Shown here in pieces: positions 1 to 63,300 of a DNA stretch of 64,000 nucleotides. The stretch lies in contig JASAND010020624.1 of NCBI GenBank assembly GCA_030248195.1, positions 1 through 64,000 of the forward strand, read 5' to 3'. The translations under genes and the position numbers were made by a program. Origin of the DNA: Trissonchulus latispiculum. Lineage: Eukaryota > Nematoda > Enoplea > Enoplida > Ironidae. The notes under the pieces were generated by a model. It did not search any database, was not told the origin of the DNA, and saw only the letters and a program-made list of their open reading frames with translations. Positions within the stretch are counted from its first letter, which is position 1. Every line of letters begins with the position of its first letter.

Positions 1-1640
1 GTGCGGCGCTGCTATGGTGCTGCGCTGCGGCGCTGCAGGTGCAGCACCGTACAGCACGCCCTGTAACTCGCAATAGACAAGTTGAAACTGCCTGAAAGCT
101 TGCCCTTTATATAGTAAATCGGGGTCGCTGAACACGATGAGAGTATCCTCGTCGTTGTGCGGTGCTGCTATCGTGTTGTGCTGCGGCGCTGCAGGTGCAG
201 CACGCTCTGTAACTTGAAATAGATAAGTTGAAACTGCCTGAAAGCTTGCCCTTATATATATAGTAAGTCGGGGTCGCTGAACACGATGAGCATATTGTAG
301 ACGCTGTGCGGTGCTGCTATCGTGCTGCGCTGCGGCGCTGCAGGTGCAGCACCTTACAGCACGCCCTGTAACTTGCAATAGACAAGTTGTAACTGCCTGA
401 AAGCTTGCCCTTATATAGTAAATCGGGGTCGCTGAACACGATGAGAGTATCCTCGTCGCTGTGCGGCGCTGCTATGGTGCTGCGCTGCGGCGCTGCAGGT
501 GCAGCACCGTACAGCACGCCCTAACGCTCGCAATAGACAGTTGGGGCTTTTGAAAGCTTGCCCTTATATAGTAAATCGGGGTCGCTGAACACGATGTTCA
601 GGAGTATCCTCGTCGCGTGCGGTGCTGCTATCGTGCTGCGCTGCGGCGCTGCAGCCGCAGCACCGTGCAGCACGCTCTGTACTCGCCGCGGGTAAAAGTT
701 TGAACTGCCTGAAAGCTTGCCCTTGCCAGTAAGTCGGGGTCGCTGAGCACGATGAAATTATCCTGTATCGCTGTGCGGTGCTGCTATCGTGCTGCGCTGC
801 AGGTGCAGCACGCTCTGTAACTTGAAATAGATAAGTTGAAACTGCTGAAGCTTGCCCTTATATAGTAAATCGGGGTCGCTGAACACGATGAGAGTATCCT
901 CGTCGTTGTGCGGTGCTGCTATCGTGCTGCAGCTGCGGCGCTGCAGGGGCGGCGCGCTCTGTAACTTGAAATAGATAAGTTGAAACTGCCTGAAAAGCTT
1001 GCCACCCATATAGTAAGTCGGGGTCGCTGAACACGATGAGCATATTGTCGACGCTGTGCGGGTTGCTGCTATCGTGCTGCGCTGCGGCGCTGCAGCCGCA
1101 GCACACTCTATGGCGAGAAATAGACAAGTTGAAACTGCCTGAAAGCTTGCCCAAATCGGGGTCGCTGAACGCGATGAGAGTATCCTCGTCGCTGTGCGGT
1201 CGCTGCTATCGTGCTGCGCTGCGTCGCGGCAGCCGCAGCACACTCTGTAACGGGAAGTAGACACGTTGAAACTGCCTGAAAGCTTGCCCTTATATAGTAA
1301 ATCAGGGTCGCTTAACACGATGAGCGTATCCTCGTCGCTGTGATCGTGCTGCGTGCGGCGCTGCAGGTGCAACACCATGCAGCACTCCTTTGTAACTTGA
1401 AATGGACAAGTTGAAACTGCCTGAAAGCTTGCCCTTATATAGTAAATCGGGGTCGCTGGAGCGCGATGAGAGTATCCTCGTCGTAGTGTGCGGTGGACGG
1501 CTGCGGCGCTGCAGGTGCAGCACCGTACAGCGCACCCTGTAACTTGAAATGGACAAGTTGAAACTTTGCCTGAAAGCTTGCCCTTATATAGTAAATCGGG
1601 GTCGCTGAACACGATGAGCATATTGTCGACGCCGTATCTC
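1..1640 (-). repeat. 155-bp tandem array, left arm
   Basis: About ten units carry the core gcgaccccgatttactatat, a caagctttcaggcagtt segment and a GC-rich hairpin with ctgcag and gcagcac. They are more divergent than the right-arm array. 155 is not a multiple of 3, so the open frames here are not a coding repeat. Confidence 0.8.
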
Positions 1641-1783
1641 ATCTGGTTCAACTGGTTCAACCTGAACCTGTTCCTGGTTCAAGTTGCTGGGGTAGCATTT
1701 AGTTTAAGGGTATGCGTTAATGTTATGGTCAATAAACCATATTAACACATTACACATTCCCTCATTCCCAAAAATGAAATAGG

Positions 1784-2575
1784 ACAAGTAGGAAAAATGC
1801 TCCTTGCAGTCGCATGAAAAATACAATATGAGCCAGAAGGACAGCATTCAATTCGGGGAAAAGACAAGATTTAAAATGTATAATATGAGCCAGCATTTAC
1901 TTATGTAAAGGACAAGATTTAAAAGTTTAATATGAGCAGCTCCCTTTCTCGGGCTCATATTGACGCCGCACGGACAGCCCGCACGGAGTGGTTTCTCTCT
2001 ATCTTCGTCGTGTTTTGCTCATATGATTCTGATAGAGCATTCAGTCAGACATATACTTTATTGAATACACCAGATCTGTGACAGAAGCTAATGGTATGAC
2101 AGCTAGCTAATGGTATATGCTGGCTGCAATGACAAAAAGGACTTGCTGAAAAGTGTGTTGTGTACAAATACCCCAGATTATGGTTGCGTAAATATATAAT
2201 ACGTAATTACGTAAATAGTGTGATATTATCATGTGTGATATATATATAGTGTGATATATAATAGTCTAAGTAGCATGTTAAGTTACTCTATGCAGGCTCC
2301 TGGGGGCGGCTCTGAGCAATGTCTATTTTTTACACTTACTCTAATTTTATACGTTGGCATCAATTAAGTTGCGTTCACCACATCGTTCCCAAGGCGTCAA
2401 TATGAGCCCGAGAAAGGGAGCTGCTCATATTAAACTTTTAAATCTTGTCCTTTACATAAGTAAATGCTGGCTCATATTATACATTTTAAATCTTGTCTTT
2501 TCCCGAATTGAATGCTGTCCTTCTGGCTCATATTGTATTTTTCATGCGACTGCAAGGAGCATTTTTCCTACTTGT
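1784..2575. mobile_element. Foldback element A, left-arm copy
   Basis: About 180-bp TIRs at 1784-1965 and 2395-2575 begin acaagtaggaaaaatgctcc. Each holds three atatgag-type modules separated by caagatttaaaa segments. The AT-rich spacer contains atatata runs. No transposase is seen. The ends and modules resemble foldbacks B and C. Confidence 0.75.
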
Positions 2576-2792
2576 ATATATAATACACGTACATAATGTC
2601 AACTGCCTTTCGCATCAACTTAATACAAGATTCGGCGCTGACAGTGCAGAAAAAACACCTTGAACACCTTTCTACCAGAACTGCATTGTTTATTTGGAAT
2701 AAGCTTTAATATTTCAAAATCGTCCCGCTTGCTTTGAAAGCTGAAGAATGTAGATCTTACTCGTATGTCATGTGGAGTGGAGCATGAGTGAC

Positions 2793-2983
2793 CGCGAATA
2801 TGGGTTGTTCAGCGAAGCTGGTCCATATTAGTGCACTTTTAACCTAGTCCTCCTGGCATTTACAACCTGTCCCTCCCATATTAACGTTTTAAAACCTAGT
2901 CCTCTGACCATTTACAACCGAATGTCACCCATATTGCATTTTTCATGCTCCACCGGAGCATTTTTATTCTTGTCCTATTTCAT
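2793..2983 (+). repeat. Solo terminal repeat of foldback family C
   Basis: Three atatggg modules alternate with cctagtcctc and acaacc segments. It ends in a tgctccaccggagcattttt hairpin and cttgt. Its mirror is 13240-13421, and a third copy lies at 17205-17386. Confidence 0.65.
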
Positions 2984-3149
2984 TTTTAAGGTTCTCAGTA
3001 AAAAGCAAAAACGTTAAAGCTGTGTGAAAGAAACTTTAAAAATTCCGCCAATCATTAATCGTCAACCGAAAGTACAGAACAAAGAAGCTTGAAAAGTTCC
3101 AAGTTCTTCCTTTTTCTCTATTTTGACAGAAATCCAACATCCAGCAACC

Positions 3150-4709
3150 ATGGCTGCAATAGTTTTAGTTGCTGTATATAGCATATAGCACTCTACTGCA
3201 GCGCAACCAAATGCAAACTTTACTGTCAGTGAAGGAAACTCATAAAACACAATTTGCAATGCTCTTCCGTACTTGTATACTAAATTTCGGACGATTGCAA
3301 CTTACCTGTAGCTAGTAATAGGCAGTGCTGTACTTCAGCAGCACTCTACTGCAGCGCAACCAGATGCAAACTTTACTGTAGGTGAAGGAAACTCATATAG
3401 CACGATTTGCAATGCTCTGCCGCACTTGTGTGCAAAATTTCGGACGATTGCAACTTTACCTGTAGCTAGTTACAGCCTGTAACGTGTACTTCAGCAGCAC
3501 TCTACTGCAGAGCAATTAGGCGCAAACTTCACTGCCAAAAAAGGAGACTTGTATGGCATGATTTCCAATGCTATTATTCTGCACCTGCCTACAGAATTTC
3601 AGACGATTGCAAGTTTTCTGTAGTTAGTTATAGGCCGTGCTGTACTTCTGCAGCACTCCACTGCAGCGCAACCACATAGTAACATAGTAATAAGTATACG
3701 AAACGTATCTATAATAGTTTGTCATGTCCTAAACTATCTGTATGCCGAATTTCAAATCCCAGTGACGAATGAATAACTTGTTATCGAAAGTGCTGTGTTT
3801 GGGGCAGCACATACAGCACGGTGGAAGCTAGAGAGTGCACCAACTAACATAGCTGCAGTTCCCCCTTACTACAGACATAATTTTCACCAAGTTTCATATG
3901 TTTAGCCGTTTACAGTAAGTCTACAGGCAGCGTGCTACGGTTGCTGCATAATAGTACAGCACGATAGCAGCACCGCACAGAGCTGCAACTATGCTCATCG
4001 TGTTCAGCGACCCCGATAACCCTTATATGCGTCCCACTATATGGCCAAAAACAGCATATTTAGGCCTATTTTTGACTATTTTCTGTGGAGTTGGGACTTG
4101 GGACTCCGAAAATGGCTATTTGGCCGGACCAACTTTGGGCCGGCCGCCAGAACGATCCTGGCCAGATATCAAAAATCGCCCTCATTAGGACATATAAACC
4201 CTTCCGTAGATCCTTATGCAATAAACCACGTCTCTCTAGCGTCTTCCCTGAGTCCTGTAGCTTTGACAAAAAATGGGCCATTTTTGGCCATTTTAGCGCC
4301 AAGTCCACTTTTGGCCGGCCGTACAGATGGCTGGCCGGGCCGGGCAGCGAAAAAATATCAAAAAGGTTCAATTTCGGGGTATATACGTTCAGAAAAACCA
4401 AACTTCACCTGCTGAAAATGCCCAGATCGTTCTAACACTCCGACAGAAAATTGCATTTTTCCAAGCGTGACTTACACGGAAAAAAACAAACGGACCTAAC
4501 TTGTCCGGAAGCGAAAATTTTCAAAGTTGGAAATTTTGTCCAAAACTTTTTTGCGACGTGTAGTACTCGTCGTGTAGATTCCAACGATACCAAAATTGTC
4601 CAGTTTGGTTGAGTATTTAGCTGGCACGGAGCTCTAACGGGTCTCCAAGGGCCGCACTGAGCCATTTACACCCATATTATAGGGGAGCGCTCTCGCGCTC
4701 CCCTATAAT
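3150..4709 (+). mobile_element. Composite array + body + hairpin element, copy E1 (left arm)
   Basis: Four units of about 155 bp (ctctactgcagcgcaacc at 3190, 3345 and 3499, with a variant near 3657), then the ctcatcgtgttcagcgaccc core at about 3993, a body with ggccggcc-type palindromes, and a perfect 14-bp-stem hairpin at 4676-4709. Open frames in the body overlap on both strands and look non-coding. Confidence 0.5.
4676..4709. repeat. Perfect 14-bp-stem hairpin
   Basis: attataggggagcg pairs with cgctcccctataat around a 6-nt loop. It marks the 3' end of E1. The copy at 11493-11526 is its mirror; 17041-17073 and 52346-52377 have the same form with different stems, so structure is conserved above sequence. 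Confidence 0.8.
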
Positions 4710-5296
4710 TAAAGTAACTAATAAGACAGAAAAGAAGATATATTTACTCATTTCATAAAAACCATTTATTACATCTTTAAATTACATCAAATTAATTAGT
4801 TAATTTAAAAAGAAAAACGTTTGTCTATTAAAATTCAGTAAGAGAAAAAAAAAAAAAAAAAAAAAAAGAAGAGAATCCAAATTTGACTTGAAATGGTTGC
4901 CCTTAAAATAACAGTAGGGATAACAATTGAACCTGTAAATTCTGTAGTTGCAGCTACGTTCGCGTAACATTAATCTAGCTGTCCTTTCAAAAGTCTAAAG
5001 GTTCAAGGTTTATGTTTATAGTAATTTTCAATTTTATAAGTTTACTTGTTTCAGCTATTCATAGCAAAATTAGCCTTTTAATTATTAATCCGATTTTTGA
5101 GAAAAAGTTGGGATTTTGATTGGTTGTAGTGTTCCGATGATTCGACTTTTCATATGGCCAGCTCTCATACATACTTCAAATCTGCATTCATAAAGTGCTG
5201 TGAAATGTCATCATATTGTCATATTTGAAGCCTCATTACGCGCGCAAAGCGTGGCAATAATAATGTAAAGCATACTCGATTTTAACTAGTTTAACC

Positions 5297-5592
5297 AGCG
5301 TGCTGAGACGCGGGTTAAAGTTCAATGTAAAATAGCGTGAGTGAGTTAAAAGAGTTAAATTTAACCCATTCATGAAAAGGGTATAGTTAAATTTAACTCT
5401 CCAGCTTTTAACTCTACGTGTCATTCACGAAAAAGAAGAGTAAAAAGAGTTGATTTTTAACTCTTTTCGCGAATGAGCAAGGGTTAAAAATTTTAACTCT
5501 GCTTGACTCGACGAGTTAATTTTAACTCTTTTAAATCATTCGCGAAAAGGAGCGAGTTAATTTTAACTCGTTTAACCCATTCGCGAAAGGCC
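5297..5592. repeat. Palindromic iteron array, left arm
   Basis: Repeated gagttaaaattaactc-type palindromes and half sites (gagttaa, gggttaaa) alternate with ttcgcgaa and ttcatgaa. The array ends against a unique AT-rich stretch. The purpose is unknown; clustered palindromic sites resemble protein-binding iterons. Confidence 0.7.
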
Positions 5593-5982
5593 CCAAGAAA
5601 AACCACTATATTGCTTGCTTCCTGCGTTTTCAGCAGAGTAGCATTGTACAGGTAAAAATGCAAACAATGCAAACAGACCATAAACCTATATACAAGTTAA
5701 GAAAAATTAGGAAAATAGATAATTGGCACCAATAAAAAGCAAAATTTGCGAAAGAGAAGCTTACAAACTCACTCCTGCTAAGTAACTTCAACAACAGATC
5801 CCTATACTGTATACAAATCGAAATCTGAGTACGTATATATGCGTAAAAATCAATTAAATCCGACACACCAAAGAAATAAAAAGTAAAAATCTTTTTTCAC
5901 CCTTCCGACATCGGTAAGAGAAAGGAAAAACTGTGGGAATGGTGGGCGAAAATGGAAGAGAATCCACACTCACAAAAATACC

Positions 5983-6324
5983 CTGGGGTGTTTTAGTGGG
6001 GGTGGGGCCCCCACTTTTTGGGTTCCAACCCCCATTTTTGGGGTCCCCCCACTCACCCTAAGGTGCCCAGAAATAGCCAAATTCTTAGGATTTTTGGTCG
6101 AAATTTTCAAAAATCGTCTATTTTGGTGCCAAAACTTAGTTTTTGAGCACTTTTAATCTTAGTTATAACAGTATATTACGTAGAAAACAGGCTTTTTATA
6201 CTGTATTTTTGGCATTTTTAGCTCATTTTACTCCCCCCCCCCACTTTTGCAAATCCCCCCTCACAAGTTGGGGGGGGCGTCATCCCCACTCTTCCCCCCA
6301 CTAATTTTTGCCTAAAAACCCCAG
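5983..6324. mobile_element. MITE with 5-bp target duplication, left arm (family F)
   Basis: Ends ctggggtgttttag and ctaaaaaccccag enclose C/G tracts. The 5-bp duplication atacc is at 5978-5982 and 6325-6329. Same family as 9908-10249 and 56566-57638. Confidence 0.65.
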
Positions 6325-6466
6325 ATACCAAGGCACATAGGCAATCGCAATACCCTTTCATCACATATAGCCACCAACTACGTAATCAACCTCTCACAAT
6401 AAAAGGGAATTCCGGAACATTGCAGGCAGCATACAGTGTAATTTAGTTTGTCGTGAGAATGAATAC

Positions 6467-6556
6467 CTGACGAAAGAAAGTCATAGGACGTTGACCCATA
6501 GCGTGTGCATCTCCAATGTTGGCCTTGATGACATTTGTAAATGGAAACTTTTTCCC
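6467..6556 (-). pseudogene. Inverted duplicate of the first visible ALT exon
   Basis: A 90-nt segment that reads, on the - strand, the same 30 residues as exon 9676-9765 ([13 protein letters not shown], then [11 protein letters not shown] and TFFRQ), with the same acag acceptor and gtatt donor. The coordinates mirror exactly (6467+9765 = 6556+9676 = 16232). Neither upstream nor downstream ALT exons accompany it within the window, so it cannot make an enzyme here. It is a by-product of the giant palindrome, real or an assembly artefact. Confidence 0.9.
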
Positions 6557-6622
6557 CTGTAACAATACAAATTTACTATGAACAATGTTCAAATTCATGC
6601 CGTGTAACCTGCTATGGTTAAG

Positions 6623-7093
6623 CATAGGCGTAAGGCAGGGGGGGGGGTAGCCAGCCATTTTATCAACCCCCCAGAAATTTGGGGGGGGGGGCGTCCGGGG
6701 GGGGGGAGTCCAAAACGGACAAAACTTGGATATTTTTAGGGTAAATTTTGCAAAATTTTCAAAAATGTCCAAATTTTTGGCTTAAAGTGGTTATCATTAT
6801 GAAAAATACACGTTTTTAACTATGTATATTATGGGTTTTCAGACTCATTATTGACCTTATTTTGGACTTGGAAACATGTTATTGTTGGCAATCAAGTTTT
6901 CGAGTTTAAAAACAATGTCTAATGTCAAAATTACTTCATAAATGAATGTTCATTGGCTTTGGAAACGACTGAAAATGCGATTTGTGGCATAAAAGTAGAA
7001 AACTTTTGGGGGGGGAGGGTTCGGGGGTATCCAGAGGGGCCCCCCAAACAAGTTGGGGAGGAGCCACCTACCCCAAATCTCCTTACACCTTTG
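6623..7093. mobile_element. hAT-like MITE, left arm (family H)
   Basis: Ends cataggcgtaagg and its inverse ccttacacctttg. Exact 8-bp target-site duplication tggttaag at 6615-6622 and 7094-7101. Interior has C and G tracts and no transposase. Confidence 0.8.
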
Positions 7094-7739
7094 TGGTTAA
7101 GGCTTGATCACCTGTATAGCTTCGCTTCCTATCTAAACAATGACGATGTGGAATTATTTCGCTTTCAGCAAAATCTAAAAGCTGCAACGCCGCTGCTCTG
7201 CTGATGCGCTAAATTGGCAGGGTATTTTTTGACCCCCCCCCCCACGGACCCGGGAGGGCCCCCGGGAAACCTCCCTCCCCCCAAAAAAATCCCTAAAAAA
7301 TACCATGACTGTTAGCCACGTGGCAGCAAACCTAAGAAAATATTTGTTGTATTAGATTGTAACACTGTTATTAACTGTAATGCTTTCAGCAGTGTGTTTA
7401 ATTTAAATAACAATAACTCATAAAAAGCGGTACGAAACCTGGCTATACTTGCCTGGTCTCACTAGCGTAGATACGGGGGGGGGGGACGGCCGCCCTCCCC
7501 GAAATAATGGCTTTGCCCCCTTGAAAAAATTGGGCAAAAGAAATTATGCACAAATTGTACATTGATGCTTCAATTAGCTCATCACAGATGCATTTTCTAC
7601 ACCATTAAAAATTTTCGCGCCTCCAGCGCGAATCTTGGCTATTTACATTATCAAAATTATTGAGGCGCGAATCTTGGCTATTTACATTATCAAAATTATT
7701 ATTTTTCATTAAGCATGCAGCTAACAACTGTTTGTATAT

Positions 7740-8498
7740 ACAAGAACCAAAAATGCTCCTTCGTCGCATGTAAAATACATATGAGTACTCTCAGGCAGGT
7801 TGTACAAACACGGAAACTAGCCTGTAAAATGCATATGAGTGGCGTTGAGGTTGTAAATTAAGGAAAACAAGTTGCAATGGCTAACATATGAGCCTGTCCT
7901 ACAACGAGGCTCATATTGGCGTATGTCATAATATAATTTGTCGATGACCTTCATATAAATAGCACGTAGTCCTTCACACATCTTGTCGCTAAGACATTAT
8001 ACTGTGGATACGTATTATACGGCATGCCACTCTGCGCTCTGACTCGGAGCCATATGGGGAAAGCATTACGTATGTGAGAGTAGTGTGTCATTGTGTTCCG
8101 ACAATACAGTAGGTGTACTATAGTGCTTCTGGAAATAGTAGGTGCCATGGTGTTTCGGGAAACATCAGCTTGCATGTACAGTTAAACTTGAGTTCACTGC
8201 AGTTCACTTCGTTCTGTCCATTTCTTTCAAGCCACAATGTTAACATGCTATGTCTATTCATTCGTTTTTTCTTTAATATGATGACCTGATGATCTCTAAG
8301 AAGGCTGCACTGTAACGCCAATATGAGCCTCGTTGTAGGACAGGCTCATATGTTAAGCCGTTGCAACTTGTTTTCCTTAATTTACAACCTCAACGCCACT
8401 CATATGCATTTTACAGACTAGTTTCCGTGTTTGTACAACCTGCCTGAGAGCACTCATATGTATTTTACATGCGACGAAGGAGCATTTTTAGTTCTTGT
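7740..8498. mobile_element. Foldback element B (copy 1) at the palindrome axis
   Basis: Terminal inverted repeats of about 180 bp begin acaagaac..aaaatgctcc and contain spaced atatgag motifs. A non-palindromic spacer separates them (7922-8315). A second copy lies at 53934-54671 with the same TIRs and a homologous spacer in the opposite orientation. No transposase frame is visible. The palindrome arms meet exactly in these TIRs. Confidence 0.8.
7922..8315. other. Unique spacer at the palindrome axis
   Basis: These 394 bp do not match their own reverse complement, so the palindrome is not a simple hairpin-read foldback. The ends of the spacer match the spacer ends of the foldback copy at 53934-54671. 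No convincing gene is present. Confidence 0.7.
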
Positions 8499-9140
8499 AT
8501 ATACAAACAGTTGTTAGCTGCATGCTTAATGAAAAATAATAATTTTGATAATGTAAATAGCCAAGATTCGCTCCTCAATAATTTTGATAATGTAAATAGC
8601 CAAGATTCGCGCTGGAGGCGCGACAATTTTTAATGGTGTAGAAAATGCATCTGTGATGAGCTAATTGAAGCATCAATGTACAATTTGTGCATAATTTCTT
8701 TTGCCCAATTTTTCAAGGGGGCAAAGCCATTATTTCGGGGAGGGCGGCCGTCCCCTCCCCGTATCTACGCTAGTGAGACCAGGCAAGTATAGCCAGGTTT
8801 CGTACCGCTTTTTATGAGTTATTGTTATTTAAATTAAACACACTGCTGAAAGCATTACAGTTAATAACAGTGTTACAATCTAATACAACAAATATTTTCT
8901 TAGGTTTGCTGCCACGTGGCTAACAGTCATGGTATTTTTTAGGGATTTTTTTGGGGGGAGGGAGGTTTCCCGGGGGCCCTCCCGGGCCCGGGGGGGGGGG
9001 GTCAAAAAATACCCTGCCAATTTAGCGCATCAGCAGAGCAGCGGCGTTGCAGCTTTTAGATTTTGCTGAAAGCGAAATAATTCCACATCGTCATTGTTTA
9101 GATAGGAAGCGAAGCTATACAGGTGATCAAGCCTTAACCA

Positions 9141-9610
9141 CAAAGGTGTAAGGAGATTTGGGGTAGGTGGCTCCTCCCCAACTTGTTTGGGGGGCCCCTC
9201 TGGATACCCCCGAACCCTCCCCCCCAAAATTTTTCTACTTTATGCCACAAATCGCATTTTCAGTCGTTTCCAATGCCAATGAACATTCATTTATGAAGTA
9301 ATTTTGACATTAGACATTGTTTTTAAACTCGAAAACTTGATTGCCAACAATAACATGTTTCCAAGTCCAAAATAAGGTCAATAATGAGTCTGAAAGCCCA
9401 TAATATACATAGTTAAAAACGTGTATTTTTCATAATGATAACCACTTTAAGCCAAAAATTTGGACATTTTTGAAAAATTTTGCAAAATTTACCCTAAAAA
9501 TATCCAATTTTTGTCCGTTTTTTACTCCCCCCCCCGGACGCCCCCCCCCCCAAAATTTCTGGGGGGTTGATAAAATGGCTGGCTACCCCCCCCCCTGCCT
9601 TACACCTATG
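9141..9610. mobile_element. hAT-like MITE, right arm (family H)
   Basis: Ends caaaggtgtaagg and ccttacacctatg, flanked by the exact 8-bp duplication cttaacca (9133-9140, 9611-9618). It lies 65 bp upstream of ALT exon 9676-9765. Confidence 0.8.
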
Positions 9611-9675
9611 CTTAACCATAGCAGGTTACACGGCATGAATGGAACATTGTTCATAGTAAATTTGTATTGTTACAG

Positions 9676-29898
<20,223 letters not shown>

Positions 29899-39326: not shown

Positions 39327-42300
39327 TTGCAGGAAGAGACCTGGCTTACCCAACTGAAGGAAACGCTAGATCGGAGTTCTCAAAATCGTGAACGAATGAT
39401 GGGCCTATTGGATTCATTTGTAGAGCGCCTTCAAACCCTGGAAGTCACTGTGCTTCCCCTGTATGAACAAACTGGTGTCCTGCAAAGGCGGCAGCAAAGT
39501 AATTTTTTGTCGATGTGCACTGGTGTTAATTATTAAGAATTGTTGTATCGTTGATGATGGTATGTATATATTATTTTACCAATTTCCAATTTAACCAATT
39601 CTTATTTCTATGCCACAGCAGTATACAATTTTACTGGCTTAATTTTATTAATTCTAGTCCACACTTCATTAATCTTTCTTTTGTTCGTGGTTATTTAATT
39701 CTTCCACAAGTCGTCCCAACGTTCTGTAGTTTTCTCGAATATTTAATTTGTATGCTGCTAGTTCCTTGGTTAAACTTAGTCTCCTCAAACCTCGAGCACT
39801 GCGTTGCGCGATCTTAAAGATGGTTGGGAACCTATTTGTGAATAAATTAATTTAAATTTCCAGTATAGGAGCCACACTGAAGTACTAATATTCCAACATA
39901 TGCTTCATAAAATTTGGTGAATTGCTTCCTTTGCGTATTGTTCTTTGGCATAAATTTCTTTCTTTTTAAACCACTTTACTATACCGCTGCATTATGTGCT
40001 TTTAGATATTGGGAAAACCCTGAAAACTATTGACAATACTCTTGGCTACTACAATTTGGCTAACGAATCAGACTCAGCTGTGAAAGACACGGAGTACGTT
40101 AGTGACTGTAGCACTGTAACTTTCCTACATTATTGGTGTTATCAAGAATACATAATAGATAAGAGTGTGACAAGCGTCACACTCTCTGTTATCAGCTCGC
40201 GAGCCATGCTCTGTTTATGTATGACTCCTTTGGATGGGACGCTGCTCTTCCCAGATCACGTTTAGCTGAATTTCTGCAATTTGAGCAAGTTAGCGCACTA
40301 ACCTCGCCGGCTATCATACATAAATCGTGAAGATTCAAATATTGTAATGAAAGAAGCTACGATTATGCGATGACTCATGTAATCCTACTTACGCTTTTGT
40401 GTTGCTGAGACGGTATCGTTTTTCTCTACGTTTTGTGTACATCTAAGCAAGAAACATTGATGCTGATTATTCTGTAAGCCCGTTGTCACCGGCTAACTTT
40501 ATTTCGCTCATTTTATAATTTATGGTTAGTTTAGTAGTAGTCGTAATAGTATTCATCGCCAGAGCCGCTTGTGCAGGGATCGGTGCTGCAGTACTGCGGA
40601 TACTTGGAGCCGAATCCGTCGCATATATCATAGCACACAGACTCGTCATAACGGCTGCCGCAAAACTCCGCTGCGCATTGGTCTACACATTGTGACTGTA
40701 GACACAGACTTTTGGGATCAGACAAACAGTCTTGCTTGGCCGCTGTGGATGATGAGCTGACACTGCCTCCACCTCCTCCGGTTCCACCAAATAGTTGCTC
40801 TGAAAGCAGAACTTGCCTTCCTTTTTAAAGTACGGAACAAATAGCAGGATGACAAACTTGAATGAAATAGCAATTTTGACATTATTATATCATCAAGCCG
40901 TGGTTACACTTGACAATCTTGTGACAACGCGTTGCTACAACGCGTTGTCACAACTGCCGTTGCTACAGAATTGTCACAACGTTGTTCGTGTAACCAGTGA
41001 CACAACGTTGTGACAACGGGTGACAACGCGTTGGGACTATGCCCGATTTCGTTGTGTGCCAACAGCCAACAGACTCAACAGCCAGTGTGCGTTGTCACGA
41101 TCTGTTGCCATATGTAACCACTAGTTGTCACGATTGACAACTATGTAAAGAGGTGATGGTAGTTGCTGTATTTTTATCGTTCCAACAGATTTGAAGTGTG
41201 CCGCATAAAGTTAATTTCTGAGTAAGGAGTAGATTGCAATTTTTCTAGCCTTCACAATTTTATCAGTCACTGTGAAGTTCCAGGAAACTGTTCCTATTAT
41301 TCGCATATTTTTTACGATTCTTCTCTAAAGTTTGAATTGAAGTAGATCCCACAGTATCCCCGCTCATGCAGCCTTGGGGGCAGTAGTGCCTCCTTGAATA
41401 ATGACTGCAACCGACAACCGAACCGTGGAGGAGGGTTTAACTCTTGCATGCAGATACCCTACAATCTACTTTATACCCTTCAATCTACTTCCTCTTGTTA
41501 GCTTCCAAGTAAGTAATGTAGCCTTTAGTTACCAATTATAAGGATAGTGAGCTGGATTCGCTAGAGCTCACGGCGAACCGATAAGTGCTTAGTCCATTGC
41601 TCAAGGGGATTAGTGAAAGGCAGCGATGATTCGAACCTCGGACTATCAGATCCTGGGCTTACTTGGGGCGGTCCCCCGTAAACACACTTTCCTGCAGAAA
41701 GCACCCTCCCGCCATAAAGTGGGTACCCAATTTTGTCCGGGAAAACTGCTCAGAAGGCCAAATTTTCAAGAAAGTTCCTACTTCACCGGAGAAATTGATT
41801 CAGTTTTCTTTTTTCACCACTGAATAATCTTATTTTTGCAGTAAAAACAAACTTTTTCAGTGGATGCTGCGAAATACCGCAATTTACATTTAGGTTTTAG
41901 AAAAAGTTTCGCCTGTCCGAAATGTCTTGCCTCCGAACATCTCCTATGATAAGGAACTCCTCCTCCTCCTCCTCCTCGAATCAGCCCAGAGATCAAACGC
42001 CCAGCTTTCTGGCCTTAACGGCACAGGAAAATATGGGGAATAATGAAGTCGCAATTGAAATAATTGCGTCCTATGCAGGACTGTTAATGTACTTTTACAC
42101 TGTCTGGGCGTATTCTGGTGGGGGCGGAGACAAATAATCTTCTCCCCCCCCTCAAAATATTTGTTCTCCATCCACAAATCCTCCCTCAAAACCAGAGGGA
42201 TCCCATTTCGGTTTCAAATTTTGTACTGAAAAATGCGCTCAAAAGGCCAAATTTTCAAACATTTTCCTGCTTTGCCGCAGTCCTATTCAGTTTCTGCCAT

Positions 42301-45300
42301 TTTGGCCACTGAATCTGCCTAGTGCTGTGATAAAGACTAACTTTCATTGTGTTTGTTAGAAATTAGCGCTATCTTTTTAGCAAAATGTGCGCACCTCTCC
42401 AAATTTCTTGTCCCTCGGATTTTTTGGAGGACCCAAGGAGTACACCCAGGAAAAAATCCCTGGAATAAGTCCAGGCTTCCAGTGACCAGTCGTCCATTTA
42501 TTCGCTCTGTTCCAAGCAAAAGTATATGAAAAAGCATTATTGAGAAAAATCACTGCAGTACTGCACCCACTATATATAGTTTAAGCCAAAAATATGTAAG
42601 TGTGTATACTTACGTAAGTACGGCGCTAGCGATTCTAGATCGGCCTTGTTTTTAATGGTGATGGTTATTTCTTCGGTTACTTCCGCTCCTACCGCTTTAG
42701 CTGCATCTGTCAGCGCTGTTCGCTTCTTCTTTGCCTTTCTTTTCTTTTTACTTTGATTCCGACTTCTGGTCGGACTTCTGGATCGACTAGTAGGTTTTCG
42801 ACTTCTTCTTTTTTTGCCGGAACCTTTTCTTGCCATTTTAGCCTTTCTCCGCTTCTTACCTCCTGTCGGGCGTCTACGTTTACTCTTCCCTTTGGCCTGT
42901 CTGGACTTTTGTCTTCTCTTTTTTCCAGTTTTTATTTTCACTCTTTTCTTGGTTGCTGGACTTCTCTGCTTAATGCGCTTCTTCAAGTCAACTCCCATCC
43001 TTTTTGGAATGAAGCCTGATCGATGCTTGGTCCTGGCGGCTCTGCTTCCTCTTGGAGCTCTGGCGCGATGAATTCGTTTGGGGCTTCGTACTTTCTTGAC
43101 GATCAGTTTTCCTTTCCTACTTTTGGCATCCTTTTCTTTGACATCGTAAACATAGTCGTAGTCTGAGCTTTCACACAAATCATTCTTTACAGCCTCCATT
43201 GCACTGTCATCGTAGGCATAGTCATAGTCGTAGTCGTAATCGCCGTAGTCATACGATGCCCCACCACTATCACCGGTGCTGGGTGGACTACCACCAGTGT
43301 CGCTACTTCCACTACTACTACTACTGCTACTACTACTGCTGCTGCTGCTACCTCCATCATTTGTTTCGATGTTTACATTTTCTTCTACTGCTGCACCACC
43401 ACCACCACTATCTGCAGTTCCGCCGCCATAGTCGTAATCACCGTAATCGCCGTAATAGTCACCGTAGTAGTCTCCGTAGTAGTCGTAGTAGTAATACTCG
43501 TCACTGCCATCTGCACGTTTGCGACCCGTCTTTGCCTTTCCTTTCCGGCTTTTTCCTTTCCCTTTTCCTTTACGTTTTCTAGAACTGTCAGTCCTTACTT
43601 TAGCCTTCACCTTCACCTTACCGTTGCCATCTTTTCCTGCCGTTCTTCGTTTCGCCTTACTTTTTCGTCGCCTTTTTGGACTTTTTCTGGACTTTCTACT
43701 TTTCTTCTGCGGCTTCCTACGATTATTCCCGTGCGATTTTCGAGATTTTGACGGTTTCCTTTGTTTTCTGGCGCTATTTCTGCGCTTTTTGGCCGGTGAC
43801 CTGCTACGTTGTCTTCGTTTGCGAGCTTTCTGCCTCTTTTTTCTGGAGGTTGGAGCACCTCGTTTAACTACATCCAAGATGTTTCCCAGAGGAGCCAATT
43901 TAACTCGTGCCGATAGAAGACTATCCTTTGGCAAGTTTGGACTTCTTTCGTTTCCGGTGGAAACATCCACGACAACACCATCAGACTGATCATCAGCTTC
44001 TGTAATGGAATTGTGGAATTTAGTACACATTTAGTACACAGTCAGAGCAAGAAGACTGCTTAGGCTAAACTCGCATAATTTGTTTATGGAAAATTTAGAA
44101 TATTGAAAATTTTAGGAATTTTTTGACCATCATTTTGAAATTTTGAACGTCAAAAATAGGTTAAATTTTTAGAGATCATTATTTAGTTTTCTTATCGATT
44201 GGAATAAAAACAACAGTGGCAAGTTGTGATGTATACCTGGCTGAAACTTTTGAAAATCTGAATTTTTTGGAATATTTTTAATTTTTTTATTTGAACCCTA
44301 ATTTCCTGCCCCGACCCCGGTTCCGAAGACGGTGAGTCTCTCCCAGATTACCCCCTTCTCCTGCAGTAAACATTTTAAAACTTAGTTATCGAGTTGAAAT
44401 TTGATATGGGTATGTTTTCGACTACGCTCAATTGAAATATGGGAAAATTTTTCGATTTCGCGAAGTTCTGTTTTTTGGATTCGAAAGAGGAGACCCAGTG
44501 CGCTGAACAAGTTTTTATCTTGCTGAAACGTTGCATAGAGGTGGTTTCGGGTCGCTGAACACGAGTCTGAAGTCTGCTATTGATTCAGCTTTTCGTTACA
44601 TCAGTATATACTTACTACTGAAGCTTACAGTCAATCTCTTTTCAAGCTATTGAAAACCTGAGTCAAAAAGCATACTTCAGATTTGTGTTCTGCGACCCAA
44701 AAAATCCATGTATTATGCGACTTTTCAGATAAAGATAAAGATAAAAACATATTCGGCTTCTCTTGGTCTCCCCTTGCGAATAGACATCTGGGTGAGGGTG
44801 CGGTGCTGAATAAACCCAAGTTGGCCCCGACCCAGGACCCAGCCGGGGGCGTGATGAGGTCACGGCCCCCGACCGAGGAACTGGCGGCGCCGGTGAATCT
44901 CAAGAACTGCTAGGGCACTTGACTTTATAGTTAGACTACTACCATGGGGAAGGTTCTTTTTGAAGGCTAAGGAACAATTCCTAGGCCCACTAATTTCTTA
45001 AGGTTTGATGGGTTTTAAATAATGTCGGCCCATGTCAAGATAAAAGTAACTTTTTGATACGTTCTGATCTACCACTTGTTTTCCTTGAAGCTTTTATTTT
45101 CATTTTGGGGTTTGGGGTTCTTATTTTTGTAGAGTTTGATGTATAACTATGCTTAGTTTCATTTTTTGATGGGAGTTCTTGGGGTTCTTGAGGTTCTTAA
45201 TTTTTCGAAGAGATTTGATCCGTAACTACATATTTAGTTTCAAATATTTGATGGGGGTTCTTGGTGATGTTCTGAAATTTTTTCAGGAGATTTGATCCTC

Positions 45301-48300
45301 TAGTATCTAGTTTTAAGTGTTGCTGGATGTTCTGAGGGTCCTGGAGTCCGGGTATACCGAAAAGTGTGTGCGCTGTCGGGACTTAGATCTTGGACAGACT
45401 TGTTCTTCTTGTCGTAAGCTTTCGATTGATACCCATTGTTGTTGTTGTTGTTGTTGCCATTTCCAGTGTTCGCCGTCAGTTCAATGTCCTAAATTTGAAG
45501 ACCCAGCATTCGTGCCACATTGACTGGGTCCGACCACAGGTGATCGGCAGTCAACCCGGTTGGCTGCGCTGGGCAGTTAAACAGATGATTGGTGTCATGG
45601 GGAGCTCCTCCGCAGTCAGGGCACGTATTTGCAGTGCCCGGATCCAAACGGTTTTGGTACGAATTAAGGAGATGGCAGTGTCCAGATCTGAGCTGAGCCA
45701 GTACTGAGCGAGTTCCTCTGGGCAAAGATTGCTCTGATTTGTCTATGGTGGGCGGGGGTCGACCGAGGACTCTGTTGTCGCCAAGGGTGGTTACGGTACT
45801 CTCGACTATGTGGGTGTGCAGCCATTTTTGGACTGCAGCAACAGAAACATTAGGTCCAAGTGAGTCATCGGCTGCTGTCAGGTACTGAAGGTGGCATCTG
45901 AATGGGTGGCGCTTCATGTCTCTAGGGGTGGGAGGTTCTTGGGCTAAGGAGTGGCAAGGGTGGTCTGGGGCTCTGCATCCCGCGGCAAATTGGCTGGAAA
46001 GGAGGAGACTGTGCTCTTTCACAGGAGGAATGCCGCATTCCTGGTGTAGGTGTTCTGCTGCGGACATTCTGTGGCAGCCGGTAGCTATGCGCAAGGCAGC
46101 ATTTTGAGCGACCTGGATCCTGTTGAGGCTAGATGGCGAAGCCTGGACAGACCAGATTGGCGCTGCGTAGTTGATGATCGATCTTCCTAACGCTTTGAAC
46201 GTGATAAGCAGCGTCTCTTTGTCTTGACCCCAAGACGTTCCGGCAAGGGATTTCAGAATAGAGTTACGTTGTTTCACGCGGTTGGCGATGATCTGGCAGT
46301 GAGGAGCGAAGGTGTACATAGTGTCAAAGGTCACTCCTAGAATCTTAGGTCTGGTTTCAAGGGGGAGGACGTCGTTTCCAATCGCGACTTGTGGGTGGAG
46401 TTTCGCTTGTTTCGTATGAGGCGTGAGAAGGGTGACTGTCGATTTAGCGGCTGAGATGTCCAGTTTGCGAAGGCGAAAAAATTCAGCCAGGCGAGGAAGA
46501 TAGTCATTTATCCTGTCTACGACTGGCGGAATAAGAGGCCCTGTGCTAAGGACAGTGACATCATCTGCGTAGCTAACGACAGAGACCCCATGACCATTGA
46601 TACCCATTGTGGATATTGGGTTAGCATACGCACAAATTTCAGTCTAATTTATGAGAAAAGCCAGGAGGAGCCCCAGCACACCCGGTTATTTACTAAAAAT
46701 TTGATGACTGAGACACATATATAATCAGGCCCGCACCCAGGATTTTGAAAAGGGGGGGGGGGTCCAAGGTAAAATGCAACCGGGGGTCTGGGGGGCGGAG
46801 CCCCCCAGAACTTGAAAATTTTTTGCATTTTTGCCCAAAAACAGTACATTGGACGTTAATTTGCAAATTGTCGCGCCGAAGGCGCGAAAATTTTTTAAAA
46901 TTAGTTGTTTTTGCCATAAAAATAGCAAAAATTTTCCATTTAGTCATCCCAAAAGAGGGGGTCTAGACCCCTTGAACACCCCCCCCTGGGTGCGGCCTTG
47001 TATATAATATACGAATTATAAACATATCATATCTGCTGAAGTACATGCTGAAGGAAAGTATCCGTACATGTCTGTCACGTACAAATCAAAGTCCTGGATA
47101 CAAATGCATGAAAAAATTTGAGAACCTTTTTTCTGAGGGGGGTTCTGGGGGAAGTAACTTTTTTCTTGGCATGGGCCATAATATCCGTAACGCAGACATA
47201 ACGAAAACTTTATTTTTTGTAAGATAGCTTAGAATGATCCAACTTCGAAATTTGGGGCTTCGAAAAAACACATTTTTCTATTTCATGTCTTATGTATATA
47301 AGTACAGTGTTTAGCTTTCATTTATTGAGTGTAAAAAATAATCGTCACTGTAGTATTGTGTAGTTATATTCTTTGAACTCACCAGAAAATTTTACTGCAA
47401 CGGCTATTAGAAGACTGTAAGATATCAGACACAGCCGAAACCGTTCCATCACCATCGCAGCAGTTTATAACCAGCGCCTAAATTCAGATATTTCAGAAAC
47501 AGCTAGATCATAACAGGAGTAATTTTAACGATGTGATCTGTCTTGACTAAGCATCGCAACATTAATTTGTTCGTCTCGCTTTAGTGAAACTCTTATGTTC
47601 AATGAGCTGTTAATCTGGTAAAATCTGAGATTGGGTTAATTTGGAACGTTATGTAGCTATGCTATTTTGCTATATAATACTGACGCACACGCATTTACTT
47701 AAACTTAGGAAATATGGTCCTGATACATGTATATATGTTTATATTGTAGCAAGTTTGCTCTGTTTGTGCTTTTCACTGCTTTTATTTTGTTGTATGTTCA
47801 ATTTATTGTTTTAGACCCTCTGACGATTTAGATCATTACATTCAGTATTTGGAGAAATTGAAGGAAGCCTTGAAATTTTTTGATGAAGAGGCTCCGAGAG
47901 GAAATCAAATTGAAAATCTTGTACGTCATAATTCTAGCTGAGTTTATCCGTCTCCTTGACTTTAACAGAAAACCCTAATTAAATATAGTATCAAAGTCGT
48001 GAGATCACAAACTAGTCGGACGTTCTGGTTCAAAAAAGTAGGCGTTTGTTTTTCCCGCTTAACTATATAGGTTGATATGGATAAAACCCTCAAATTAGCT
48101 AGTTAACGATATTGCTATGTTCACTAGATTTTTCGAGAAGTTCGCAAAAAATTAATTTTGTATTGAGCTATACTGTAGATTTACGAACGTGCTCATTTAC
48201 CAGTTATGTGTATTTATATCTTTGGTTTTATCCTTTGGAAGTCTTACTTCCTCCTCTTTAGGGCGGAGTGAAGCCGCTCCCTTTCAAAATCTATTCAAAG

Positions 48301-60300: not shown

Positions 60301-63300
60301 GAGGACGGCGAATTGTCGTAAGTGATGTAAAACTGTTTGATTTCCTTTCAGGCTTTGATATTTTTGGAACAACTGTTGGAGTTTCGAGAATCCCTGACCA
60401 TGATTCTGTCCACGGATCCTAGCTCAGCTAACCTGGCTGTTCCTAAATATTATGGTAACTTAACTAGCAGGATTTGTATGTTAAGTCAGTTACTAAGCTA
60501 CCCTAGTAAACTCAAATCTTTGTTTAGACTGTTTACTGTAGTTGTAGTATTTGTAAAGCTTTGTATTTTAGCTCGTGTCTTATCAGCCCTTGGTCTGAGT
60601 CTTCGAAATAAGAGTGAACTCTACAGTGATGCTACGCTGAAGGCTCTTTTCATGCTGAATAACTACAATCATATCCTAAAATCTTTGCAGAAGTAATTTA
60701 GTCTTTCGGTTGTCTATTTATTTTTCAGTTGTCTTTGTTTATTTGAATAAGCAGAGAACACGACCGAGGCTTGCCATTCTTAGTGCCTTGGCTGGGCGCA
60801 AATGGGGACCTGGAAAAGAAGATCAAAGGATTCTGTTCATCTCCTACATAAGATCCCTAATGGAGTATGCTATGTCTGCGTGGTATCCCTCAGTCTCCAA
60901 GACCAGCGCTGAGAAGCTGGAAACTATACAAAACCAGGCAGTTAATCACTGGAAGCCTTCCGGGGACTCCTGCCGGATACGTTAGACTGGAGGCCAATCT
61001 AATTCCTCTACACCTGCGAGCTAAGGAACTGGTTGGAATTGGATATGAAAAATCAATCAGACTGCCGGCAGATAATCCCAGATTTGAGGCATGCCTGCGG
61101 TCGGTCAATCAACGTCTCCCAAGTCAGAACTCCTGGAGAGTTATGGGTCGGCAAGTCTCTGAAGCGGCTGGTCTTTCCAGGCACAGAAGAGAGCCGCTCT
61201 GTCTTCCGTCAATCCCACCATGGAACTCGCCTGGCAATGTCACAGTATATACTGACATTGGTCTCAACAGCTCGAGAAAGAAAGATCTACTGCCGCATCA
61301 GCTGAAGCAACTCACCCTTGCCGCCTTGGCGAAGCTTCCACCTGCCGATCTGCTGATTTGGACAGATGGTGCTGTGAAAGATGCCAATCAGGCCGGATTT
61401 TCAGGTGCAGTAGTGTATGACGGGAGTCGAGGTACGCTAATGCACCAGATTACTGTTCCTGCTGGTCCCCTGTGCTCCAGCTTCAGAGCGGAACAAATTG
61501 CTTTCAGGGAGGCTCTCAGCTGGGCGAAAGATCATTTTGCTGCTGATGTGGCTGGTGCTGCTGCCGCAGCAACCGAGGACGGAAGTCTTTTCAGAGAGGC
61601 CAGGGTATGTACTGACTCGTTGTCTCTTGCCGGAAATCTCAAAGCTGGCTGCCAATCCGCGAGTACCCCGACGGCCATCAGTATATGGAAACCTGGCAGA
61701 CTTGGAGAAGATCGGGGTCCATGTCACGGTTCAGTGGACTCCCAGTCACATCGATGTTGCTGGCAACGAAGCAGCTGACACTGCTGCTAAATTGGGAACG
61801 GAAATGGAGCAGGAAAACGTGGAGTTGGACTACGCCACCGCCAAAGCCGCCGTTAAAAGATATATCCGTGAAGAATGCATGCGGCTTTGGAAAGCCGAAG
61901 ATACGAATGGAACATTCGACGGGAATAAACCTGTTTCGCTGGAACTGGAGCAAGGTCTCAGCAGGAAGGAGCGGGTGACTCTCTCACAGCTCAGATGTAA
62001 TGGTCACTCCCTCCTGCTGGCCAAGCAGAGGTACAGGATGGGTATCTCTCCGTCTCCCGCCTGCCCTGACTGCTCAGCTCCGGAAGAAGACCTACCTCAC
62101 CTATTACTCTACTGCCCTGCTCACAGGGGCGCTAGACGACTGCACTTCGGGTCCCGGCCCAGGCTTGACATCCTTTCGAGGGGTCCCCCCAGGGTCCTTG
62201 CCTATCTCCGGGATGTGGGCCGACTCTAGTTGGTCCAACCCCATTGAGCCTGCTCACGACGGTCCAGGAAGATGAAGAAGAAGAAGATTTGAATAAGCTT
62301 TTGCGTACAATTTTGGAATGTTCCACTATTTTGTTCGTTTCGTTATTTATGAATGTTTAATGTGTGCTGAACAACTTTTGTCTGATTTCTTAGGTCTGGA
62401 GGATTGCGTGTTGTCAGTGAACAGAATAAAGAAGTTGGAGGATATTATGAACAGCAAATCAAAGAACACAAAACCCAGTACTTTCAGTGGTATGCATGTC
62501 CATAAATTTTTTGCTTGTTTAGAATAGGTTTTAACTTCTAGATTTCGAAATCTGTTTGCTTATTTCGGTCATTGTATCGATGTTAGACAATTTCGTTTTA
62601 CCTTGCTTGTTATTGTTATTTAGTTGGTCACGTCTTTTATCATTCATTGCGGAACAAAGACCTGGCTATTCGCCTTCTCTGACTGCTGATCGCTTACGTG
62701 ACAAGGACAGACAACTTGTTAAGGATGCTTTTGCGGTGATTTATTATTATATGGTTTACTATGAGTCTATGAGATTATATACCAAATGTAAATGGGAATA
62801 GTTTTGTTTTATTGATTGCAGGGCAATGCTCCTTTAGCGCTGAGGATATTTTGCTGCCTTCCTCAAAATCTCAGATGGGCCGTTGTAGAATATGTAGCTG
62901 GTGGTGATTGACTGTCGTATTAGGGGTTATTTGTTGTAGTAATAATAGTGCATGCTAACATAAGATTTTTGACAAAACCAAATACTCGTGTCAGGAGATC
63001 AGACAAACTCCCGAGTATCATGGACAGTAATATCAGAAGTTTTCTTCATAAAATCCAATACCGGTCGGATAGACTGCAACGTACTACCCAAATGCGTTCA
63101 CGCTTGTTTTAAAATGTTGTAGGTTTAACAAATTTCTTTGACTATTCATTTCGCCGATGCAAATCAGATGTTTGCTACATATCAAATTTGATCTCAACAC
63201 GTAGCTCACAACAGTGAACAATAGCTCATTCAACAGTGCATTATGTTTACCAGTGTGGGCCTCAACACCCACTGCGGGGCATGCCGCCCACCAGGTCCTA

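Follow-up and report, generated by a model that had tools for sequence, protein, structure and literature searches.

A three-exon gene for an apparently secreted protein of alternating basic and acidic blocks lies antisense within an intron of EXOC7 in the 64,000-nucleotide stretch analysed here (hereafter the window), which is part of a contig of 156,357 bases (C14014) in a 734-Mb assembly. Judged from its open frame, its splice sites and selection, the nested locus is a protein-coding gene, and it is maintained by purifying selection. The reading favoured, with roughly even confidence, is that of a functional, lineage-restricted, apparently single-copy gene for a secreted polyampholyte of structural kind. 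Based on its composition, the protein would most likely be a self-associating building material, for example a matrix, shell or glue component.

The gene consisted of exons of 73, 1386 and 269 nt on the minus strand (Table 1), which joined into a coding sequence of 1728 nt for 575 amino acids. Both introns were in phase 1 and had consensus GT/AG sites (donor TCTG/GTGAGT and acceptor TTACAG/AA for intron 1, TTAC/GTAAGT and TTTCAG/AG for intron 2), so the junctions and the joined frame bore out the three exons with consensus splice sites and matching phases that had been proposed from the letters of the stretch without database searches (the sequence-only reading). The middle exon, previously described as open, indeed had 461 full codons without a stop, and among 3000 sequences generated by a first-order Markov model of the same composition none stayed open as long (maximum 214); the other five frames of the exon had 8 to 50 stops. 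Codons were mixed for Lys, Arg, Ser, Tyr and Asp, a mixture that makes simple triplet slippage an unlikely origin for most of the protein. The nine-Cys last exon and the AATAAA signal near the stop were likewise found in the sequence as described, and the assignment of exons 2 and 3 to one gene gained support from the recurring Tyr/Asp motif and from the constraint shared by both exons in the two copies of the gene.

EXOC7 was located on the plus strand by tblastn and spliced alignment, from 39327 to 63735, with 224 identities over 629 aligned residues; the query was a provisional human EXOC7 sequence, and the middle exons of the resulting model (about 50-58 kb) look unreliable. A database search using this model returned arthropod EXOC7 with 34-35% identity. 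The spliced alignment confirmed the antisense position of the nested gene, within the EXOC7 intron 40094-47814.

In a genome search, exon 3 matched one other place, on contig C7054, where 19.8 kb aligned with window sequence to either side of the gene, six EXOC7 exons included. Because of this matching on both sides, the C7054 copy is most simply read as the other haplotype, though it may also be a recent duplicate. The second gene possessed identical GT/AG sites and no stop, and its sole indels, of 3 and 9 nt, were in frame. Identity between the copies was 72/73 nt in exon 1 (the sole difference being S12F), 1331/1377 in exon 2 and 267/269 in exon 3; among non-coding parts, it was 1591/1707 in intron 2, 1795/2227 in intron 1 (with 1177 gap columns) and 135/145 upstream. 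The copies differed by 30 synonymous and 22 nonsynonymous changes (10, 12 and 30 differences at codon positions 1, 2 and 3, respectively), with a synonymous divergence (dS) of 0.084, a nonsynonymous divergence (dN) of 0.017 and a dN/dS of 0.198. None of 2000 shuffles gave as few replacements as the 21 observed (mean = 34.4, minimum = 23). Exon 3 showed two synonymous and no nonsynonymous differences, and none of the 10 mature Cys and 33 mature Tyr was altered. As a control, the six EXOC7 exons showed 5 differences over 644 sites and their flanks 15 over 324, the EXOC7 exons being better conserved between the copies than exon 2 of the nested gene. The intact copy on C7054 and the pattern of change, which shows purifying selection, thus argue for a real gene.

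The protein alternated between oppositely charged blocks, with a charge segregation (20-residue windows) 24 standard deviations above that of 500 shuffles. Residues 25-75 were mildly acidic and ended ahead of a furin-like RKKR; together with KRRQR (residues 77 and 84, respectively), this site opened basic block 1, and 29 overlapping (K/R)R pairs were counted in the protein. The two Tyr/Asp blocks and the Gly/Ser linker between them were each acidic. Asp or Glu adjoined 23 of the 33 mature Tyr, and 20 had at least three acidic residues and no basic residue within five positions, an acidic, base-free context that favours tyrosine sulfation in the Golgi. A link of 46 residues connected basic block 2 to the nine-Cys segment. 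Beyond the nine Cys of the last exon, the protein possessed two more, namely C300 and a Cys at residue 9 within the signal-like segment, and the mature chain therefore held an even number of Cys, ten with C300. Within the nine-Cys segment, C524-C528 and C542-C546 formed a CX3C pair with 13 residues between them, fitting the pattern of alpha-hairpinins, in which two CX3C motifs stand about 8-15 residues apart. A single-sequence AlphaFold2 model of exon 3 contained helices, at an uninformative mean predicted local distance difference test score of 48.3.

Concerning secretion, hydropathy peaked at residues 8-22 of the segment encoded by exon 1, and AXA-type motifs in this N-terminal segment suggest, under the (-3,-1) rule, a putative cleavage after A20 or A26. 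Exon 1 was the sole signal-like exon with an 8/9 donor on the minus strand up to 52000, the one other candidate having a 6/9 donor, and it was present in both copies. Overall, the complete three-exon coding gene for an undescribed protein without a detected relative, as the sequence-only reading had it, stood; the secretion that it also claimed rests on exon 1, and the matrix, mineral-binding or adhesive function that it proposed rests on composition.

Searches for relatives were carried out at the genome, protein and structure levels. Exon 2 (27 candidates scored) and exon 3 (6 candidates scored) each gave two genome matches at E ≤ 0.001, in the window and on C7054 only, in a search that scores the best candidates only. 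No paralog family was found in the genome among these best candidates, and the nested gene appears to be single-copy in the assembly. The protein database comprised 5.8 billion sequences, including NCBI/UniRef animals as indicated by the EXOC7 control, and its search considers only candidates that share an exact 5-residue word with the query and are 0.55-1.75 times as long. The queries were drawn only from the C-terminal 126 residues and gave no match at E ≤ 1 for residues 490-575 (144 candidates) and none at E ≤ 10 for residues 450-575 (511 candidates). A Pfam scan of the full protein (E up to 1) yielded no family, and that of exon 3 alone only Tic110 (14.1 bits compared to a cut-off of 27), taken as chance. 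For the C-terminal part, the PDB had no match below E = 0.1 and nine up to E = 10 (best E = 0.11), also taken as chance, while IMG/VR had no contig related to the nested gene and a literature search on motif strings returned nothing relevant. The search with the Cys-rich part that had been suggested earlier was thus run against Pfam, the PDB and the protein database, and the statement that the architecture matches no known family agreed with the absence of relatives in these searches. The interpretation given in the sequence-only reading is plausible rather than proven. The gene is an orphan whose product is of a generally known kind, that of charged, low-complexity proteins of extracellular materials, and whose architecture could be matched to no family.

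The kind of animal concerned was approached through the mitochondrial code. Another contig of the assembly (C17523) carried, at about 25.8-31.6 kb, AT-rich mitochondrial pieces between GC-richer flanks, with COX1 identified by Pfam and nad3, cytb, nad2, nad1 and cox2 by eye. This stretch is probably a nuclear copy, because COX1 contained stop codons and changed frame and because the surrounding DNA was GC-richer. A 203-aa piece of this COX1 scored best with the invertebrate code (Pfam bits of 201.2 with table 5, 197.9 with table 13, 197.1 with table 4 and 190.6 with table 9), and with ATA read as Met and AGA as Ser it agreed with the mammalian chain at the conserved places inspected. The test is modest, as it concerns a single piece of a probable nuclear copy; it probably favours a protostome over sponges, cnidarians, flatworms and echinoderms, whose mitochondrial codes differ, to our knowledge, from the invertebrate code. 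Both silica-sponge and calcareous-sponge matrix readings are weakened by this code, as is the silica-sponge part of an earlier comparison with silaffins and shell matrix proteins. On the favoured reading, the product would serve a protostome as matrix, eggshell, cuticle, adhesive or mineral-associated material.

In the mechanism proposed for a secreted structural polyampholyte, an N-terminal signal peptide would direct the protein into the secretory pathway, the short acidic pro-segment may be cleaved at RKKR, and Tyr in the Asp-rich context may be sulfated and/or oxidised to 3,4-dihydroxyphenylalanine (DOPA). The basic and the acidic Tyr blocks would pair within and between chains and thereby make the protein condense (coacervate) extracellularly; the condensate would be fixed by disulfides of the nine-Cys C-terminus and C300 and by Tyr/Lys cross-links. 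Secretion, sulfation, DOPA formation and coacervation are inferred, the condensation on secretion and its fixation by analogy with known systems.

Silaffins and Lys-rich shell matrix proteins are Lys/Ser-rich, low-complexity secreted matrix proteins like the present one; we know of no nine-Cys end and no Tyr/Asp stripes among them. In the glue of sandcastle worms, as described in excerpts of PMC11277488, polybasic and polyacidic proteins coacervate before DOPA cross-linking. The same excerpts present the Phragmatopoma cement proteins Pc1-Pc5 as secreted, polybasic or polyacidic and rich in Ser and Tyr, which the nested-gene protein resembles, with condensation through charge pairing followed by Tyr-derived cross-links described for them, and describe a Pc3 member as zwitterionic or polyampholyte, a further likeness (PMC11277488). 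By description, opposite charges are carried mostly by separate Pc proteins, whereas here they alternate in one chain that ends in nine Cys. Acidic, Tyr-rich, sulfation-prone stretches are also reported for the small leucine-rich repeat proteoglycans fibromodulin and osteoadherin (excerpts of PMC7310474), and most mature Tyr here (20/33) lie in such a context. The sulfotyrosine-rich end of fibromodulin mimics a glycosaminoglycan and binds heparin-binding proteins, and a reference title in the same excerpts mentions 'motifs of basic clusters' (PMC7310474). Unlike these proteoglycans, which have leucine-rich repeats, the present protein had no Pfam match and hence no such repeats, and unlike in fibromodulin the basic clusters and their Tyr/Asp partner belong to one chain. 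Excerpts of PMC10772126 describe hexaxilin, perisilin and glassin of hexactinellids as secreted matrix proteins of the skeleton in which Cys are conserved (6 in hexaxilins and 12 in perisilins), a further resemblance; they also make perisilin a distant relative of the CAP superfamily (PMC10772126), whereas no CAP domain appeared in the Pfam scan here.

A possible, if doubtful, extension of this mechanism is a self-complementary one-protein material, in which a block copolymer of the form +57 / Tyr-Asp / +62 / Cys would unite the heparin-like sulfotyrosine partner and the basic clusters that it binds in one chain, condense alone on secretion and be locked by ten Cys and Tyr/Lys, without a homolog.

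Several observations weigh against a secreted structural protein. The weakest point is exon 1, and hence secretion, as this least secure part of the model rests on one signal-like exon; when the donor cut-off was loosened to 6/9, 20 stretches taken at random from the window held about 1.5 signal-like candidates per 8 kb, and both copies retained an in-frame ATG at 44030 that would give no signal peptide. The basic blocks, being Arg/Ser-rich (RS-rich), would equally suit a nuclear protein, and a chain so dense in Lys/Arg might be cut at its many dibasic sites on the way through the secretory pathway. Moreover, charge was altered by 5 of the 21 replacements between the copies, and the 3' flank was as similar as exon 2 (225/231 identical), so raw identity alone is insufficient to set the exons apart. 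Function is backed by no homolog, family or fold.

The ATG at 44030, with the frame open behind it in both copies, could start an extended exon 2 (MCTKFHNSITEADD...) with exon 1 unused, giving an unsecreted nuclear or cytosolic RS/Lys-rich product, in line with the resemblance of the RS- and Lys-rich basic blocks to nuclear proteins. This product is distinctly unlikely given the acceptor-like stretch just ahead of 43999 (TTCCATTACAG) with its branch-like words (TACTAAAT), the presence in both copies of an upstream signal-like exon of matching phase with an 8/9 donor, and the nine clustered Cys and Tyr/Asp runs, which fit the extracellular space. In another reading, a secreted precursor would be cut at dibasic sites to yield antimicrobial or protamine-like polybasic peptides, and its acidic Tyr/Asp blocks would merely neutralise charge in storage. 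This reading agrees with the furin-type sites, the many (K/R)R pairs and the alternation of basic and acidic blocks, but no repeat unit was bounded by cleavage sites, and the most constrained part, the C-terminal link and Cys segment without nonsynonymous change, would be left unexplained; it is regarded as very unlikely. The extreme low complexity and the lack of relatives could also suggest a non-functional locus. Here, a chance open frame was rejected on purifying selection and on the 3000 composition-matched random sequences, none of them as open, and a pseudogene on the intact second copy and the dN/dS; with two copies under purifying selection and a stop in neither, a chance frame or decaying copy is scarcely credible.

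If the product hardened through a reaction of Tyr-derived quinone with Lys, and sulfation and charge pairing played no such part, it would be a DOPA-tanned eggshell, cuticle or cement protein, an unlikely alternative that overlaps with the favoured polyampholyte and differs from it in chemistry alone. One chain rich both in Lys and in Asp-adjacent Tyr is compatible with such tanning; against it, the mitochondrial code reads AAA as Lys, unlike that of flatworms as far as we know. Trematode vitelline proteins, as described in excerpts of PMC11727788, are secreted and Tyr-rich like the present protein and are proposed to be tanned through DOPA-Lys cross-linking, but they have a TES domain and are mostly without Cys (PMC11727788), whereas here no Pfam family was detected and the mature chain has ten Cys.

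Table 1. Features of the nested gene, its protein and the flanking EXOC7 exons (positions in the window).
Feature	Position	Strand	Description
Exon 1	47383..47455	-	Start ATG, residues 1-24 (MVMERFRLCLISYSLLIAVAVKFS), signal-peptide-like, phase-1 donor GTGAGT
Exon 2	42614..43999	-	Residues 25-486, donor GTAAGT; in order, pro-like segment, basic 1, Tyr/Asp 1, Gly/Ser linker, Tyr/Asp 2, basic 2, start of C-terminal link
Basic block 1	43509..43847	-	Residues 76-188, 60 Lys/Arg of 113, net +57
Tyr/Asp block 1	43425..43508	-	Residues 189-216, 13 Tyr and 8 Asp/Glu in 28 residues
Gly/Ser linker	43251..43424	-	Residues 217-274, 13-Ser run, holds both in-frame indels between copies
Tyr/Asp block 2	43110..43250	-	Residues 275-321, includes C300, the sole exon-2 Cys
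Basic block 2	42681..43109	-	Residues 322-464, 65 Lys/Arg of 143, net +62, RS-rich
Exon 3	40531..40799	-	Residues 487-575 and stop TAA; Gly/Ser spacer, nine-Cys segment, C-terminal GDEYYYDYY
Nine-Cys segment	40573..40728	-	C511-C562, C-x7-C-x4-C-x3-C-x4-C-x8-C-x3-C-x10-C-x4-C
AATAAA poly(A) signal	40498..40503	-	Begins at the 28th nt past the stop
EXOC7 exon flanking the nested gene	40006..40093	+	Spliced alignment; 0 differences over 88 sites to the second copy
EXOC7 exon, other flank	47815..47920	+	Spliced alignment; 2 differences over 106 sites to the second copy

Repeats and inserts were observed in and around the nested gene. Intron 1 contained an insert of about 1.16 kb on the minus strand (45437-46595), absent from C7054, with a reverse-transcriptase-like frame and a YADD motif recognised by eye; the alignments overlapped by 12 bases at this insert, the pattern expected from a target-site duplication. 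In intron 2, a short tandem array (40924-40967) had a near-palindromic unit (ACAACGCGTTGCT). Contig C7054 carried about 7.5 kb of extra, repeat-rich sequence (about 9862-17335) without a counterpart at 40212-40215 of the window, and the same repeats occurred at 52.3-54.7 kb of the window. Open frames resembling pieces of a retrotransposon without long terminal repeats were seen by eye in EXOC7 introns (60861-62226, plus strand).

Farther from the gene, the window possessed a long inverted repeat (1-7922 and 8315-16186) with arms of about 7.9 kb and a spacer of about 390 bp; the arms were 97.2% and 98.6% identical in two pieces, and each arm had a 149-155-bp tandem array. This structure may be a true palindrome or have arisen by fold-back during assembly. 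Another large inverted repeat on C14014 was indicated by shared open frames in inverted order at 77.6-84.2 kb and 134.6-141.3 kb, about 55 kb apart; one of these frames resembles the HMBOX1 homeodomain.

The nested gene is an orphan that is functional at the sequence level (dN/dS of 0.20) despite extreme low complexity, and it exemplifies both an antisense gene within the intron of a conserved gene and a class, the orphan low-complexity genes, that homology-based annotation tends to miss. Animal materials that set underwater mostly mix separate polycationic and polyanionic proteins. A single selection-maintained chain with both charges and built-in cross-linkers would be a compact coacervate design and a template for synthetic ones, and the self-complementary protein, if true, would be a lineage-specific invention, encoded within an intron of an exocytosis gene and antisense to it.

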